DNA of 39,646 nt from a virus, in the IMG/VR virus record IMGVR_UViG_3300005067_000027, positions 1 through 39,646 of that record. The stretch is one strand, 5' to 3'. Each line of letters opens with the position of its first letter. The first letter of the stretch is position 1. Positions 1,064 to 10,157 of the stretch are shown piece after piece. The notes below the pieces were generated by a model. The model saw only the letters and a program-made list of their open reading frames with translations, did not search any database and was not told the origin of the DNA. The position numbers were made by a program, and so were the translations under genes.

Positions 1064-1297
1064 TTGAATTCTATTCGTCTTCCGATTCGTCAGATTGATT
1101 TAGCCAGCCGTCTTGGAAAAACCCAGGCTTTTGTCAGCCAATTTATAAACGGACAGGTCGGTTGCTCCCTGGAAACGGCTGAAAAGTTATCCGAGCTGTT
1201 CGGCCAGTCTCCTATCTGGTGGATGAAATCAAGCGCGGAAGATCGGCGCAGAGCGCTTTGCAATGGCAACCATGATGAATATAAAAAAACGGCTTAA
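1064..1297 (+). CDS. Small XRE helix-turn-helix protein (second of three)
   Basis: A short DNA-binding protein of about 77 residues. RQIDLASRLGKTQAFVSQFI is a typical helix-turn-helix, followed by a tail ending FGQSPIWWM that matches the same region of the genes before and after it. The best start is a TTG at 1064, seven bases after GGAG; an in-frame GTG at 1046 is the alternative and would begin two bases after the previous stop. It is tightly packed in the early operon. It could be a second Cro-like protein or a CII-like activator; the sequence does not say which. Confidence 0.55.
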   Translation: MNSIRLPIRQIDLASRLGKTQAFVSQFINGQVGCSLETAEKLSELFGQSPIWWMKSSAEDRRRALCNGNHDEYKKTA

Positions 1298-1307
1298 GGG
1301 GTCTGTG

Positions 1308-1688
1308 ATGTCGGATTCCATTCAAGATCATGATTTTAAGGTGGCTCTTGTACGCATTGAATATCAGCTGGCAGAGCTTGAAGTGGTTACTCAAAACCTG
1401 AAAAAGCAAGCCGCTTTTTTGCGCAAAGCAGTGCAGGGTGACGGGTTTTGTGTTTACGCCAATAAAAAAGTTTTTAGTTATAAAACCAAAAAAGCAATCG
1501 CGGAAAAGGCAGGCATATCGGCGGCCTTTTTGACTGAATTGACATCCGGTAAGAAACGACCTTCCTGGCCCACGGCAAAGAATCTGGCTGCGGCCACTGG
1601 CACCTCTCCGGTGTTGTGGATGGATGGCGGTCCCGGTGACATACAAAACGCAATTCATGCTTGTATGTCTGCCCAGGAGGTTTCTTAG
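1308..1688 (+). CDS. XRE helix-turn-helix protein with N-terminal helical extension (third of three)
   Basis: A 126-residue protein. Residues 1-45 form a helical, probably coiled-coil extension rich in Leu, Glu and Lys that could mediate dimerisation. The C-terminal part has a helix-turn-helix (KAIAEKAGISAAFLTELTSG) followed by GTSPVLWMDGG, closely resembling the C-terminal segments of the two preceding genes. The start at ATG 1308 follows GGGGTCTGTG; the frame is open back to 1263 with other ATGs, so the exact start is uncertain. With its neighbours it makes three consecutive related regulators, probably from tandem duplication followed by divergence. Confidence 0.6.
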   Translation: MSDSIQDHDFKVALVRIEYQLAELEVVTQNLKKQAAFLRKAVQGDGFCVYANKKVFSYKTKKAIAEKAGISAAFLTELTSGKKRPSWPTAKNLAAATGTSPVLWMDGGPGDIQNAIHACMSAQEVS

Positions 1689-2913: not shown

Positions 2914-3795
2914 ATGAATGAAGAAACGAAACAGGATCAAGGGGTTGAATGCAGCCGGTGGCTGCGGTTTTTAGACGAATCCGTCGGCAGCCAGGCGGGT
3001 ATTGACTGCCTGCAGGAGTTTTTCGGGTATTGCCTGACCAGGGATGTGATTTTCTCCAAGGCCCTGGTTCTGGTGGGGCCTTGCGGGTGTGGAAAGTCCC
3101 TGGTCCTTAAAGTGCTGCGGGAAATTGTCAAGCCCGCTCCCGTGACAGATCTAACCATTGAAGAAATAAATGATCAGTCCTTCCGAAGATTTTTGCAACC
3201 TTCTGCTTTGAATATATCAGTTGAGGGGGATCTTAGGCTTGTTCTGGGAAGCGCTTATTTCAAGGCCATTCTGGCCGGAGACACGATTAATGCTTCTTAT
3301 CCAATGGGTTGCTTCCACAATCACCGAGCTTTTGTTTTCCAGCCATTTTGCAAGCTTGCCATTGAAACCAATCATTTCCCGCCTGAGGTGCTTAGGTCCC
3401 AGGCGGCGATGAAGCGGCTTCTGGTCATTTTGTTCAAAAATGTCCCACCAGAAGCTCGCTTGGAAGGCCTGTTTGATCTTTTCAAACAGGAAATTCAAGG
3501 GATTCGGTCCTGGGCTATATCCGGGTTTAAGCGCCTGATTGATCGAGCAGCTTTTACAGAGCCCTGCCTTATTCATGACAACGAACTGGACGCGCTTGAA
3601 CAGGGATGGATTGCCTTGCGCGGCCAACCCGAAGTGGAGTCGCCCAAAGAAAAACTGGATCGGTTTATCCGTGAAAACGGGTGGTCATACGATTTTGTGG
3701 CGATAGCTTCAAGTGCCCTGCTGATGGAAGAAAAATTTCGGAGGCTTGGGGTTGAGGCGTTTGCAAATGAGCCCAAGGACCAGGGCCGGCATTAA
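2914..3795 (+). CDS. Stand-alone SF3 helicase-like domain (D5/P4-type, no primase)
   Basis: A 293-residue P-loop protein homologous to the C-terminal helicase half of the large primase at 5169-7580. Shared blocks include LQEFFGYCLTRD here versus LQEFSGYCLTKT there. It keeps a Walker A GPCGCGKS at residues 55-62, an SF3-type Walker B region ending in Glu104 (LNISVE), motif C AIETN at 149-153 and a basic MKRLL at 166-170 in the Arg-finger position. It lacks the primase, zinc-finger and D5-N parts. The start is ATG 2914 after AGAGAGG. SF3 helicases form hexamers that unwind origins, so this shorter relative could be a loader, a mixed-ring subunit or a regulator of the full-length enzyme. Confidence 0.75.
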   Translation: MNEETKQDQGVECSRWLRFLDESVGSQAGIDCLQEFFGYCLTRDVIFSKALVLVGPCGCGKSLVLKVLREIVKPAPVTDLTIEEINDQSFRRFLQPSALNISVEGDLRLVLGSAYFKAILAGDTINASYPMGCFHNHRAFVFQPFCKLAIETNHFPPEVLRSQAAMKRLLVILFKNVPPEARLEGLFDLFKQEIQGIRSWAISGFKRLIDRAAFTEPCLIHDNELDALEQGWIALRGQPEVESPKEKLDRFIRENGWSYDFVAIASSALLMEEKFRRLGVEAFANEPKDQGRH

Positions 3796-5168: not shown

Positions 5169-7580
5169 ATGGGAATTGCAAAAGAGCATCTGGAAGAGCA
5201 GCAGCGCCGGGCAATTGCCCAAGAGTGTTTTACGGTAAAAAGCGGGTGGGAGGCTGACGAACTGGTGGGCCTGTGCCCGTTTCATGAGGAAAAAAATCCG
5301 TCTTTTTCCTACAACCCAAAAAAGGACATGTTTCATTGCCTGGCCGGCCATTGCGGGGCGTCCGGCGATTTGGTTGACCTTTGGGCGCATGCACACGGCT
5401 ATGGTGCAGACGATGGGTTTAAGTCGTTTTGCGATGAATTCGGGATTGACCGCGGCGGGCATGGCGGCAAGCAGGGTCCCGGCCAGCCACCAGTTCCTGG
5501 CAGCCGGAAAAAAGACAAAGCCGCAGCAAATGCAAAGCAGGAGGATGATCCGCCCTATCTGGATGAAGCTTATGCCATGCTGGGTGATCTTCCCGAGACC
5601 TGGATCAAGTATCTGGAACGCAAAAGAGGGTGGTCCAGGGACGTGATGCAGGCCCTGGGATTGAAGCTGCAGACGCATTTTCAGGCCAAGACAGGGGAAA
5701 TCAAACAAATCAAGCAGCCGGACCGTGTTGGTATTCCGGTTTACGATAATGACGGCCATGTTCGCAATATCCGCCTTTACAAACCCGAAGGGTTAAAGGA
5801 AGGCGAAAGCAAAATCTTTTCCTGGGGCAAGGCCTATGGAAAGGCCAGGCTGCTGCCCGCGGCGCCTGATGACCGGTCCCCCGTGCTGGTATGCGAAGGC
5901 GAACCAGACATGATTTGCGCCCGGTCCCAGGGTTTTAACGCCATCACTCAGACAGGCAAGCCAAAGAAATGGAGCCGGGAACACGCGACCGTATTTGAAG
6001 GCCGGGACGTGGTTATGGCCTTTGACGCAGACCAGGCCGGGGAAAAATATGCGCATGTTTATGCAGCCCCGCATCTTGCCAAGGTGGTGCGGTCTCTTAA
6101 GGCTGTCGAGTGGCCCGATGAAATGGGCAGGCAGGTGGACGGCACATGGCCGGAAGACCATGGCCAGGATCTGACCGATTTTTTCGTGCGTCACCGAAAA
6201 AACGTGGATGATTTCTGGCAGCTCATATCCGAGGCCAGGCCGGTGGATATCCTGCAGCACGTATCTGCCCAGGCCCTGGAGTTTTTCGAGCGGGGATTAA
6301 ATGACCGGGTCAGCTTCAAACCCCGGCGCCTGGCAGAAAAGATCCTGGCAGAGCACCAGCTTTTGACCGATCCGGAAACCGGCCTGTTTTACCGCTGGAA
6401 CGGCCGATACTGGGAGCAATACCACGAGGATCATGTCAAAGGCCTGGCGCTTCGGTATCTGGGCGGGGAAAGCCAGAAAAGCAGGGCAGAGGATGCAGCC
6501 TACCAGGTGCGCATTTTAAGCACCATCCCCCACGGCCGGGCAGTCAATGACTTCAAGGACTGGGTGTGTGTCAGAAACGGCATGCTAAACCTGGAAACCC
6601 TGGAGTTAAAGCCCCATGATCCTGAATATTACGCCACATACGAGCTAAACGTCATCTATGATCCGAATACAGAGCGCCGGTGTGACAGGTGGCTAAAGTA
6701 TCTGGAAACCAATGTTAAAACACCCGGTGCGATTGCCCAGCTTCAGGAGTTTTCCGGCTATTGTCTCACAAAAACCACGATGTTTGAAAAAAGCCTCATT
6801 TTATTAGGGCCTGGTGGCGATGGTAAAAGCACCTATCTAAAGACTATACGCGAATTAGTAGGCCCTCAGAACACCACAAGCGTTTCATTTCCGGAATTGG
6901 AAGACCAGTTTTTAAGATCAAGCCTTTACCAGAAGGCTATCAATATCAGCACGGAGGTTGGATCCAAAGCTATAGAATCTCCATATTTCAAGGCGATTAC
7001 AAGCGGGGATTCAATCAACGCAGCTTTTAAGCATAAGAACTCATTTAACTTTGTGCCCTATTGTAAGCTGATGTTTGCTTCAAACCGGCTGCCCAGGGTG
7101 TTGGATAATTCAGACGGGTTTTTCCGTAAAATCTTGCCGGTTAAATTCAAAAGGCAATTTCTGGAAGGAGATCCGGAAAGAGATCCCCTTTTATTTGAGA
7201 AGCTGAAAAGTGAGTTGTCCGAAATCTTTTCCTGGGCTTTGGTGGGGCTCCATCGGCTCCTGAAGCAAGGCCATTTTACCGAATGCCAGGAAACCGACGA
7301 GTTGATGCTCGGCTACAAGCGGCAGAATAATCCGGTCCTCTGTTTTGTGGACGACATGTGCCACATCGGCCAGGAGCACCAGGAAAGCAAGAAAGAGCTT
7401 TATACCAAGTATAGGGAATACTGCAATGCAGGCGGCTATAAGATCCTTTCCCGGGAAAACTTCTTTCGGGAGCTTTATACGGCTGTCAACAACCTGCATA
7501 TGATCCGCCCCAGGGTGGATGGCAGGCGGGAACAATACCTCAAAGGAATCGCTATAAATGGTCTTGCCAATGAAGAATAA
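5169..7580 (+). CDS. Phage primase-helicase (CHC2 zinc finger, TOPRIM, D5-N, SF3 helicase)
   Basis: An 803-residue replication protein expected to make primers and unwind DNA. Domains in order: CHC2-type zinc finger (CPFH at 36-39, then C57 and C62); a low-complexity Lys/Pro linker at 97-125; TOPRIM at about 185-340 with LVCEGEPD (Glu243), MAFDADQAG (Asp286, Asp288) and DLTDFF; a D5-N-like region at about 380-500 (VCVRNGMLNLETLEL); and an SF3 helicase with Walker A GPGGDGKS at 547-554, Walker B ending at Glu596, motif C FASNR at 636-640 and RK at 653-654. All key residues look intact. It starts at ATG 5169, three bases after the previous stop. The iteron array immediately downstream is the likely site of action. 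Confidence 0.9.
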   Translation: MGIAKEHLEEQQRRAIAQECFTVKSGWEADELVGLCPFHEEKNPSFSYNPKKDMFHCLAGHCGASGDLVDLWAHAHGYGADDGFKSFCDEFGIDRGGHGGKQGPGQPPVPGSRKKDKAAANAKQEDDPPYLDEAYAMLGDLPETWIKYLERKRGWSRDVMQALGLKLQTHFQAKTGEIKQIKQPDRVGIPVYDNDGHVRNIRLYKPEGLKEGESKIFSWGKAYGKARLLPAAPDDRSPVLVCEGEPDMICARSQGFNAITQTGKPKKWSREHATVFEGRDVVMAFDADQAGEKYAHVYAAPHLAKVVRSLKAVEWPDEMGRQVDGTWPEDHGQDLTDFFVRHRKNVDDFWQLISEARPVDILQHVSAQALEFFERGLNDRVSFKPRRLAEKILAEHQLLTDPETGLFYRWNGRYWEQYHEDHVKGLALRYLGGESQKSRAEDAAYQVRILSTIPHGRAVNDFKDWVCVRNGMLNLETLELKPHDPEYYATYELNVIYDPNTERRCDRWLKYLETNVKTPGAIAQLQEFSGYCLTKTTMFEKSLILLGPGGDGKSTYLKTIRELVGPQNTTSVSFPELEDQFLRSSLYQKAINISTEVGSKAIESPYFKAITSGDSINAAFKHKNSFNFVPYCKLMFASNRLPRVLDNSDGFFRKILPVKFKRQFLEGDPERDPLLFEKLKSELSEIFSWALVGLHRLLKQGHFTECQETDELMLGYKRQNNPVLCFVDDMCHIGQEHQESKKELYTKYREYCNAGGYKILSRENFFRELYTAVNNLHMIRPRVDGRREQYLKGIAINGLANEE

Positions 7581-7668
7581 CCCTGCACCCGGCATGGTCA
7601 GGCCGTCGGGCGGCTTGGGGCTTGGGCTTTCCCCCGCGGCCCCCGTTCCCCCCTTTAAGTTCCAGGCC

Positions 7669-7927
7669 GGTCAGGGTGGTCAGGGTGCGGTCAGGGTGAA
7701 ATCGTTTCACCCTGACCGGGTAATTGATAACCATTCCAATTGGTTAATTGATGGTGGTCAGGGTGGTCAAGGTAAACGGCAATAATAATGCACATGCGCG
7801 CGCGTGTAGGGGGCTTGTAAATATTTTTGGTTTTATAAGAAAAACCCCTGACCACCCTGACCACAGCAGAGATGACGCGGCTTTTTACCTTGACCACTTG
7901 CCTTGACCGACCCTGACCACCTTGACC
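7669..7927. repeat. Inverted iteron array, candidate replication origin
   Basis: The 9-mer GGTCAGGGT, or its variant GGTCAAGGT, occurs on the plus strand at about 7669, 7678, 7689, 7756 and 7765. Its complement ACCCTGACC, with ACCTTGACC and close variants, occurs at 7709, 7845, 7854, 7887, 7901, 7910 and 7919. The 7689 and 7709 copies are the ends of a perfect 13-bp hairpin (arm GGTCAGGGTGAAA, loop TCG). Between the clusters lies an alternating GC tract (7793-7804) and an AT-rich stretch (7819-7844) that could melt. Iterons in two orientations around an AT-rich core, directly after a primase-helicase gene, are what a phage origin looks like. No reliable gene occupies 7581-7953. Confidence 0.6.
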
Positions 7928-7953
7928 AGGGCCTATGAACAGGAGGTTTTAAG

Positions 7954-8322
7954 ATGATCGGAAACCTTGCAGCAAAATATGACATTCCAATTGAGCAGCC
8001 GGAAGACCCGGCTATTGACCAGGGTGAAGCATGCGAACCCGACCCGCGGTTTATCAAACCCTTGTCCGCCCCGTGGCGTAGCTTTCCCAGGGTTGTGGCT
8101 TTGTCGGATTTCCTGAAGCGATACCAGGATCACGGTATCCGGATTGTGCACAGGGATAACGAAGTCTACATGCATTTTGCCCCACCCCTGGATCATGGCA
8201 ATAAAGAGCGCAATGCCATCGCCGGCCAGGCACTTGAACTGTTTGCCGGTGCCATCGGTGATATTGAATTCCTGATGCACCGTGGCCTGATCCGGCTGCC
8301 CGATCATCCCGGCTACCATTAA
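7954..8322 (+). CDS. Conserved-looking phage protein of unknown function
   Basis: A 122-residue protein with a strong AGGAGG site seven bases before ATG 7954. It begins with an acidic, Pro-rich stretch (IEQPEDPAIDQGEACEPDP) and continues with an alpha/beta-looking core (FLKRYQDHGIRIVHRDNEVY). No catalytic motif is visible and I do not recognise the family. It is the first gene after the putative origin. Confidence 0.5.
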   Translation: MIGNLAAKYDIPIEQPEDPAIDQGEACEPDPRFIKPLSAPWRSFPRVVALSDFLKRYQDHGIRIVHRDNEVYMHFAPPLDHGNKERNAIAGQALELFAGAIGDIEFLMHRGLIRLPDHPGYH

Positions 8323-8405
8323 CGGGTCCTTCCCGGGGCCCGGTTTCGTAGGGGTCATAACGGCGCGGCTTGTCACTACTTTTATTAAAAAAAACGGCTG
8401 GAAAA

Positions 8406-8798
8406 ATGGAATTTGCCGAAATCATTAAAAAAACTCAATTAAAGACTGTTTGCAAGGCAATTGATGCCTTTGGTCCGGATTTTTTGGACGCCGATGTTTG
8501 CCGAAAATTTGTTTTCAAATATTTGCATCCGGAAGGCGCCAGGTGTCCGGAATGCGGCGCGGGGCTGGATGAGACGAAGTCGTCACGGTTTTGGCAGGGA
8601 AAAGCCGTAAAATGCCGGCAATGCGGAAAAACTTTTACCATACGCACTGGCACCGCCCTGGCCGGCAAGGGGTTGTCCGTCCAGGAAATCGTTTTGATGC
8701 TCTGGTTATTGTCCCGCGGGGAAACCGATATCCGGATTGCTAAAATAGTTGGTTGTAACCGGGAGACCGTCCGCTTGTGGCGCCGGAAAACAACTTAA
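8406..8798 (+). CDS. Zinc-ribbon plus helix-turn-helix protein (IS1595-transposase-like N-terminus)
   Basis: A 130-residue protein beginning at ATG 8406 after GGCTGGAAAA. Residues 40-75 have two zinc knuckles, CPECG and CRQCG, of the zinc-ribbon type seen at the N-terminus of IS1595/IS1-like transposases. They are followed by SVQEIVLMLWLLSRGETDIR and a helix-turn-helix, IAKIVGCNRETVRLWRRK. No DDE catalytic domain follows, so it is not a transposase. It is more likely a DNA-binding regulator built from a transposase N-terminus, possibly a late-gene activator given its place between the replication and packaging modules. Confidence 0.6.
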   Translation: MEFAEIIKKTQLKTVCKAIDAFGPDFLDADVCRKFVFKYLHPEGARCPECGAGLDETKSSRFWQGKAVKCRQCGKTFTIRTGTALAGKGLSVQEIVLMLWLLSRGETDIRIAKIVGCNRETVRLWRRKTT

Positions 8799-8824
8799 CC
8801 AGTAAGAGGATTAAAAGGAGAATC

Positions 8825-9175
8825 ATGAAAGTTGCTGTTTGCGGCCCAAGATGGGTTCAGAAAATTGACCTAGAAAGTGTTCTGCCGGAAGCAACATCCA
8901 CGATTGTTTCCGGAGGCGCCAGGGGCGTTGACACCCTGGCGGAAAATTTTGCCCGGCAGCGCGGGCTTAAAACGATCATCCATTATCCGGACTATAAGCG
9001 TTATGGCCGGCGGGCCCCGCTTGTTCGAAACTCCCTGATTGTTGGGGATGCCGATCAAGTGATCGCCTTCTGGGACGGGGTTTCCCGCGGAACCCACGAC
9101 ACCATTAAGAAAGCAGAACGAAAAGGCAAACCTGTTCTGATTGTTTCTGTGGAGGTTGGGCGGAATGACGAATAA
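8825..9175 (+). CDS. SLOG-domain protein (YspA/DUF2493-like)
   Basis: A 116-residue single-domain protein with an AAAAGGAGAATC leader before ATG 8825. It has the SLOG Rossmann-like nucleotide-ligand fold: first strand MKVAVCGPRW, then VSGGARGVDTLAENFARQRG at 28-47, RNSLIVGDADQVIAFWDG at 68-85, RGTHDTIKKAERKGKPV and a last strand. The GGARGVD and RGT motifs match the YspA/DUF2493 branch. SLOG domains are known or predicted to bind or process nucleotides and occur in DNA-processing and conflict systems. Its end overlaps the start of the next gene, which carries a second SLOG domain, so the two products probably work together. Confidence 0.75.
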   Translation: MKVAVCGPRWVQKIDLESVLPEATSTIVSGGARGVDTLAENFARQRGLKTIIHYPDYKRYGRRAPLVRNSLIVGDADQVIAFWDGVSRGTHDTIKKAERKGKPVLIVSVEVGRNDE

Positions 9176-10157
9176 GTGCATGGTCTATGTTTGTTGTCCG
9201 TATTGGCATGAGGATGAAAGCGTCAGGAATTACCGCCGGCGCAAGGCCATTGAATATTCAACGGTCCTGGTTAAAAAGGGTGTGCCCTGCTATTCGCCCC
9301 TGCTTTATACAGAGCGGTTCAAGAATGACAACACCAAGGAAGGCTATTGGATCGAGCACGGCCGCCGGATGCTCGATGCATGTGACGAAGTGCGCGTGTT
9401 ATGCCTGGATGGCTGGGAAGAAAGCAATGGTGTGAAAGGCGAAATCCAGAGGGCTGAAGAGCTGGGCCTTGAAATCAAGTATATCGAAAAACACAGCCGA
9501 CTGTCTTTCCATGGCAGCCGGACCCTGGTTGATTCAAAAACCCGCCGGGTCATTTTGACAGAAATTGAAAAGCACCAGCCCGAAACCATTGTCACCCATG
9601 GAGAACCAGAGGGCGCCTGTGCTCTTGCCAGGGAGATAAGCAGAAAAGAGGGAATCCCTTTAAAGCTCCATCATCTGCAGCACAAGTACCTGGCAGGGCA
9701 ATTTCATCATCGGTCAGTGGCTGTTTTGGAAGACTGCGATCATGCCATATTCCTTCACGATGGCATAAGTCAGGGATGCAGCAATGAACTGGTTTTAGCC
9801 CGTAAAATGGGTATTCCCTATACCTATTATGTTCTGGAAAACGGAGTCCTGGTCCAGCGCGATGCCGAGGATCTGGCCAGCCAGGATATTGGGGTTGATC
9901 TGCTGGGGGACCAGTATGAGGCAAAGCTGGATCAATCAGCCAGAAAAACCCCGGAGTACAGAAAGTTTGTCAAGGCGGTTCTGGAACGGGACAATTACAC
10001 CTGTCAGTTTTGCGGATCCAAGGAAAACTATACGGTTCATCATCTTATACCATTTTCCAAGCATAATGAGCTAGCATTAGATCCCACCAATGGGCAAACA
10101 CTTTGCAAAGACTGTCATGAGGGAGTCCATGGAAAGAGACGATACAAACGAGCCTAA
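9165..10157 (+). CDS. Three-domain fusion: deoxyribosyltransferase-like (DUF1937/DUF4406) + SLOG + HNH nuclease
   Basis: A 330-residue protein from ATG 9165, nine bases after GGAGG and overlapping the previous gene by 11 bases. Residues 4-108 resemble the nucleoside 2-deoxyribosyltransferase superfamily (MVYVCCPYWH, SPLLYTERF, LDGWEESNGVKGEIQRAEE). Residues 113-225 are a second SLOG-like domain (SFHGSRTLVD, THGEPEGACALAREI, CDHAIFLHDGISQGCSNELV). Residues 264-325 are an HNH nuclease with CQFC (280-283), TVHHLIPFSKHNE, NGQTLCKDCHEGVH, and all zinc and His positions kept. I read it as a nucleotide-sensing or nucleotide-processing protein with a DNA-cutting output. It lies directly before the terminase genes, so a packaging-associated HNH role is the main alternative. 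Confidence 0.75.
   Translation: MTNKCMVYVCCPYWHEDESVRNYRRRKAIEYSTVLVKKGVPCYSPLLYTERFKNDNTKEGYWIEHGRRMLDACDEVRVLCLDGWEESNGVKGEIQRAEELGLEIKYIEKHSRLSFHGSRTLVDSKTRRVILTEIEKHQPETIVTHGEPEGACALAREISRKEGIPLKLHHLQHKYLAGQFHHRSVAVLEDCDHAIFLHDGISQGCSNELVLARKMGIPYTYYVLENGVLVQRDAEDLASQDIGVDLLGDQYEAKLDQSARKTPEYRKFVKAVLERDNYTCQFCGSKENYTVHHLIPFSKHNELALDPTNGQTLCKDCHEGVHGKRRYKRA

Follow-up and report, generated by a model that had tools for sequence, protein, structure and literature searches.

Positions 7669–7927 of the virus record IMGVR_UViG_3300005067_000027 (39,646 bases, analysed whole and referred to below as the window) are very likely a phage replication origin that is read by the primase-helicase encoded just upstream (probability about 0.9); there are no replication or binding data. 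We interpret it as a two-arm origin of the PICI/SaPI type located in a full-size phage, with a Z-DNA-prone element in addition; iteron binding and autonomous replication are inferred. Sequence comparison establishes the repeat array, its fixed plan, its link to the primase-helicase gene, the turnover of the repeated word, the covariation of that word with the winged helix of the primase-helicase, and the conservation of the Z-DNA-prone tract.

The array consists of twelve copies of GGTCARGGN directly 3′ of the gene for the 803-aa primase-helicase, in a gap of 373 bases (7581–7953) between the stop codon of that gene and the ORF at 7954. When up to one mismatch is allowed, GGTCARGGN matches 27 times in the whole window, where 7.6 ± 2.5 matches are expected; the maximum in 100 shuffles of the window was 13. 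A weak outlying copy lies near 7596. The six sites of the left arm are oriented + + + − + + and those of the right arm are all −, with most sites pointing inward. The two arms fit within 259 bp and are separated by a 71-bp centre that is 61% AT, as compared with 49% window-wide. The features are listed below.

2914–3795: small SF3 ORF, 293 aa, P-loop GPCGCGKS, paralogue of the helicase ATPase domain
5169–7580, + strand: primase-helicase, 803 aa, proposed initiator (Pfam/PHROGs)
7359–7562, + strand: C-terminal winged helix of the primase-helicase, residues ~731–798
7669–7677, + strand: iteron L6, outermost in the left arm
7678–7686, + strand: iteron L5
7689–7697, + strand: iteron L4
7688–7718: hairpin in which iteron L4 pairs with the inverted L3 (arms 7688–7701 and 7705–7718, 14 bp, perfect, 3-nt loop)
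7709–7717, − strand: iteron L3, inverted, at a conserved position within the left arm
7756–7764, + strand: iteron L2
7765–7773, + strand: iteron L1, innermost in the left arm
7788–7808: alternating pyrimidine-purine, Z-DNA-prone tract ATGCACATGCGCGCGCGTGTA, 21 nt, perfect
7809–7844: AT/T-rich half of the centre, presumed melting region
7845–7853, − strand: iteron R1, innermost in the right arm, GGTCAGGGG
7854–7862, − strand: iteron R2
7887–7895, − strand: iteron R3, GGTCAAGGT
7900–7908, − strand: iteron R4, GGTCAAGGC
7910–7918, − strand: iteron R5
7919–7927, − strand: iteron R6, outermost in the right arm, GGTCAAGGT

A first-pass annotation, made without database searches, had described twelve near-copies of a 9-mer in two opposed clusters, a perfect 13-bp hairpin in the left cluster, an AT-rich centre with a “GC-alternating tract”, and a gap of 370 bases after the primase-helicase gene. 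All of these observations held, the hairpin arms and the gap being slightly longer than stated, and the tract proving to be a perfect pyrimidine-purine alternation that is also conserved across relatives. Its interpretation of the array as an origin is strongly supported by sequence comparison, with no bench data. The proposed GC-skew check was run and was uninformative, since the skew is positive almost everywhere and no switch marks an origin across the window. The hairpin was considered as a separate device and dropped: comparison across relatives showed that an inverted iteron, usually ~20–24 bp from its neighbour, occupies a conserved place in the arm and accounts for the hairpin, which is therefore not an independent element.

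The link between the array and the gene came from scans in both directions. In 2.9 million viral contigs and 84,980 genomes, the DNA-first scan looked for a pair of adjacent repeats with an opposed repeat 70–100 bases further on, ignoring gene content, and returned 27 stretches from the viral contigs and seven from the genomes. A primase-helicase adjoins most of the arrays of six or more sites found in this way, mostly with 46–85% identity; the remote ones, at 24–28%, are from Gemmata, Lysobacteraceae and Alphaproteobacteria records. No other gene is shared so consistently among the array loci; the downstream ORF and an HTH protein are variable. The gene-first scan, which used aligned primases, yielded 79 loci, most of the loci being metagenomic contigs, and 61 remained as non-redundant after collapsing at 95% identity. 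At least nine copies of one word were present in the 900 bp after the gene in 53 of these 61 relatives, as compared with 4 of 183 same-locus control windows and 0 of 61 shuffles.

The first-pass annotation had proposed a search for the same 9-mer after the gene in related phages, and held that the origin would be refuted if relatives kept the gene and lacked the repeats. GGTCARGGT is found within 1 kb downstream of the gene in about half of the loci from the gene-first scan, and nearly all of the others have a different 9-mer on the same plan, the words at the equivalent position including GGTCCGGGT, TGTCCGGGC, TGGCACAGG, CGTCAGACC, CGTCCCAAG and more. For example, locus L149, whose gene is 71% identical to that of the window, uses the word TGAGCAATG with outer spacings of 9/11/22 (inverted) and 13/10/9. 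The objection that relatives lack the repeats fails because the differing words keep the plan of spacing and orientation. In the Desulfobulbus loci L128 and L138, the array lies ~2.4 kb beyond the gene, in another gene context and with its own alternating tract.

Among 15 annotated phages and plasmids with primases 23–31% identical, 14 had no array above background after the gene and the remaining one had only a cluster of the palindromic TTGCGCAA. In an Alicyclobacillus dauci plasmid (L232), eight to nine palindromic TTGCGCAA copies span ~260 bp just after the primase gene; this may represent another kind of origin associated with a related helicase. At L311, L362 and L377, remote helicases (~25–31% identical) are accompanied by two-arm arrays that use words such as GGGTAACAG and TGGGACAAC and have no alternating tract. 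At positions 1–381 of L048, the same word recurs as a long in-frame tandem repeat with an 18-bp period within a coding frame, which we consider unrelated to origins. A blastn comparison of the gap with known phages gave a sole match, to Streptococcus phage Javan137 and one sister; the Javan137 match lies inside a hypothetical-protein gene and was taken as chance. The 9-mer gave only noise in the literature searched.

Comparison of the 53 loci with a clear centre shows that the plan stays fixed while the word turns over. The commonest site count is six per arm (left arm, 30 of 53 loci; right arm, 33 of 53), which suggests, by inference, one hexamer per arm. Distances from the innermost site of the left arm peak at 0, 9, ~52 (inverted), ~74, ~85 and ~95; the right arm is either the mirror image of this plan or, as in the window, has sites at 0, 9, 42, 54, 64 and 74. 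The start-to-start distance across the centre is 81–119. Centres are 59% AT against 47% for the loci and are the richer in 51 of 53 cases (p = 3e-10); their right half is rich in T, which exceeds A in 46 of 52.

The centres also have the alternating pyrimidine-purine run in common, including centres whose words are quite different. In the window, the run at 7788–7808 is the longest alternation present, and a length of 21 was reached in only one of 200 Markov simulations of the window. Across relatives, a run of at least 14 nt is present in 47 of 53 centres; none of 997 other windows from these loci has one, and 4.8% of Markov-1 sequences derived from the same centres reach that length. Runs in the centres, of which CACATGCGCGCGCG is an example, have a median of 21 nt and reach 45, and only 55 runs of (YR)7 or more were counted in 515 kb of these loci, a number close to that of the origins. 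The run begins 15 bp (IQR 14–16) after the left arm and mixes CG, CA, TG and TA steps. Runs of 21–29 nt were likewise present in the new loci L250, L272, L277, L302, L305, L316, L327 and L385. That alternation is kept despite changes of letter points to a structural constraint, for which the obvious candidate, still unproven, is a B-to-Z transition driven by negative supercoiling. No such tract was found in three streptococcal PICIs, in P4 or in the more remote relatives tested, and we therefore regard it as a clade-specific addition. In the literature searched, which was partial, no earlier description was found of an origin with a conserved, Z-DNA-prone tract at a fixed internal position.

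Evidence for the identity of the reader came from the primase-helicase itself, which comprises a DnaG-type zinc ribbon, Toprim, D5_N, an SF3 ATPase (DUF5906) and a Pox_D5-like C-terminal winged helix. The closest solved fold to an AlphaFold2 model of residues 474–803 (pLDDT 91) is the SaPI5 primase-helicase (7om0/7ola, TM 0.74), and the modelled winged helix has its recognition helix at 762–772 and wing strands at 777–779 and 790–796. A covariation scan compared the word with all 657 alignment columns of the whole protein in 48 loci; words were aligned automatically, and the few loci with ambiguous registers were excluded. For base 5 of the word, residue 789 was the best-tracking column of the 657; bases 6, 1, 7 and 8 were best tracked by residues 789, 782, 763 and 772, respectively. 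All of these fall within the modelled winged helix, where the recognition helix contains 763 and 772 and the wing contains 782 and 789. Base 5 is C with Y, R or K at residue 789 (18 loci) or with N (10 loci of a single clade, with the wing “NAY”), and A with Q, N, P, T, A, C or W (18 loci). When independent pairs differing in base 5 were contrasted on a tree that excluded the winged helix, the residue-789 class also switched in 11 of 12, always in the same direction. L078 and L176, 87.7% identical, differ at residue 789, one having Q with base-5 A and the other Y with base-5 C.

Interpretation of the covariation is limited by its discovery: the residue-789 pattern had been spotted by eye in these very loci before the column scan ranked it, and only a small held-out set is independent. 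In that set, the base-5 rule held for R in three of three loci (L250, L277 and L316) and failed for E (L272) and W (L327). The failure on L272 was of the rule that D or E at residue 789 means G, which was rejected, and the clade with N and base-5 C also counts against the base-5 rule. Since E and W do not fit, these data amount to a strong association that falls short of a complete code. Matrix correlation linked the word to the winged helix only weakly (partial r 0.13, p = 0.028); we consider the column-by-column and tree-paired tests better. The first-pass annotation had named either the primase-helicase or the small SF3 protein as the reader. The covariation favours the primase-helicase, as does the absence from the small SF3 ORF of a winged helix; it also has no primase part. 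The primase-helicase is thus likely to read the iterons through its own winged helix, as inferred from covariation without binding data. Relatives of the small SF3 ORF occur in L125 (72%) and near L079 (41%), and it is possible that its product joins the helicase ring or antagonises it.

The proposed origin has parallels in PICIs and SaPIs. PICI origins lie immediately 3′ of rep and have two iteron sets around an AT-rich region (PMC6092414), and the C-terminal domain of SaPI Rep acts on iterons, apparently as two hexamers (PMC7581432). The window array similarly lies directly 3′ of an initiator helicase gene and has two opposed iteron sets around an AT-rich centre, and its initiator has a SaPI Rep-like fold with a C-terminal winged helix. 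The spacings in the PICI satellite Javan334 (L236) nearly match, at 0, 8, 52 (inverted), 74, 85 and 0, 8, 51 (inverted), 64, 85. Only the geometry is claimed as common, because the PICI words have the opposite direction; a shared GGT core was dropped on the same ground. The window differs in that its initiator has a DnaG-type zinc ribbon and Toprim primase part, and its centre has the long alternating tract missing from the three PICI centres. Moreover, a PICI is a satellite about one third of phage size that uses its helper's capsid genes, whereas the window encodes TerL, portal, protease, major head and tape measure, and is a full-size phage.

Phage P4 provides a second parallel. The annotated type-1 repeats of P4 ori fall at 0, 10, 53 (inverted), 75, 86 and 96, which is the left-arm plan, and its six repeats are spaced 10/11/22 (inverted)/43/10, as compared with 9/11/20 (inverted)/47/9 in the left arm of the window. 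P4 crr, which adjoins the alpha gene at its 3′ end, resembles a right arm (0, 9, 52 inverted, 70 inverted, 84). However, ori and crr are kilobases apart, crr is duplicated, and the P4 word is GGTGAACA. By analogy, a straightforward reading is that P4 may have split this origin, crr being the other arm in duplicate. Other systems match less fully. In plasmid pRN1 (primase, SF3 helicase and winged helix), the origin likewise lies just downstream of the primase-helicase gene (PMC4234260), but it is a stem-loop of ~100 nt without iterons, as against twelve in the window. The C-terminal domain of the SCCmec Cch2 helicase binds iterons downstream of its operon, at a putative origin (PMC7581432); these are three AAGTG iterons and not a 6+6 plan. 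An iteron plasmid of the Rep_3 type would carry its initiator gene next to the iterons, but no Pfam match to a Rep_3-family initiator was found among ten window proteins scanned, including those encoded on both sides of the array.

Taken with the SaPI/PICI and P4 precedents, the array suggests a mechanism that remains inferred. The primase-helicase would bind each 9-bp iteron via its C-terminal winged helix, and the six sites on each side would assemble one SF3 hexamer per arm. The two hexamers would face each other across the ~71-bp centre, melt its T-rich half, load and prime. The alternating tract beside the left arm would probably absorb stress from negative supercoiling, a B-to-Z switch being one possible way, and may thereby set the place at which the duplex opens.

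Four alternative explanations were considered. The first, that the tract arose by chance from GC-rich simple repeats and plays no part in origin function, is unlikely. Slippage generates simple repeats, and the absence of the tract from the PICIs, P4 and remote relatives tested means that not every such origin needs it; however, its near-confinement to the centres, its fixed start, the retention of alternation with mixed steps, and its presence in the new loci all argue against accident. The second, that the array is an operator for the downstream gene or genes or for autoregulation of the primase operon, is very unlikely. The array is upstream of the ORF at 7954 and inverted repeats are common in operators, but that ORF varies among loci that keep the array, the L128/L138 arrays and tracts sit in another gene context, and a T-rich centre flanked by two opposed arms, with twelve sites spread across ~260 bp, resembles an origin in plan. 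Also very unlikely is the third, an origin read by another protein, either the small SF3 ORF, as a helicase paralogue, or a zinc-ribbon/HTH protein (8370–8798) whose gene is often nearby. The former has no winged helix and is found in few loci, the latter is absent from many loci that keep the array, and the bases of the word track residues of the primase-helicase. The fourth, a packaging (pac/cos) or partition (centromere-like) site, is all but excluded: such sites use repeat arrays, and terminase genes lie ~2–4 kb downstream, but across loci the array accompanies the primase-helicase and not the terminase, and in P4 and PICIs an array of homologous geometry serves as an established origin (PMC6092414).

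Between the array and the terminase, the window encodes a SLOG/DprA-like protein (8777–9175) followed by a fused deoxyribosyltransferase-like (DUF7768/DUF4406) and HNH protein (9141–10157). CI-like and Cro-like regulators at 251–784 (−) and 1263–1688 (+) suggest a temperate phage; no integrase was found among the window proteins scanned.

The replication origin favoured here would extend the PICI/SaPI type to whole phages, although an earlier description of the two-arm plan cannot be excluded beyond the literature searched. A bolder reading, which we consider slightly more probably wrong than right, is that one blueprint underlies the origins of this clade, the PICIs and P4, with the tract as a supercoil switch and a word that follows a wing code. 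If this were true, the mirror arms of six would provide one site per subunit of two facing SF3 hexamers, P4 ori and crr would be two arms pulled apart, a tract prone to left-handed DNA at a fixed central place would drive opening via supercoiling, and the iteron word would co-evolve with a readable code in the initiator wing. The constant geometry combined with a changing word offers a handle on how the number and spacing of sites build two helicase rings, and natural pairs such as L078/L176 make the DNA code of the initiator directly testable. P4's need for a distant crr likewise gains a concrete, testable explanation.
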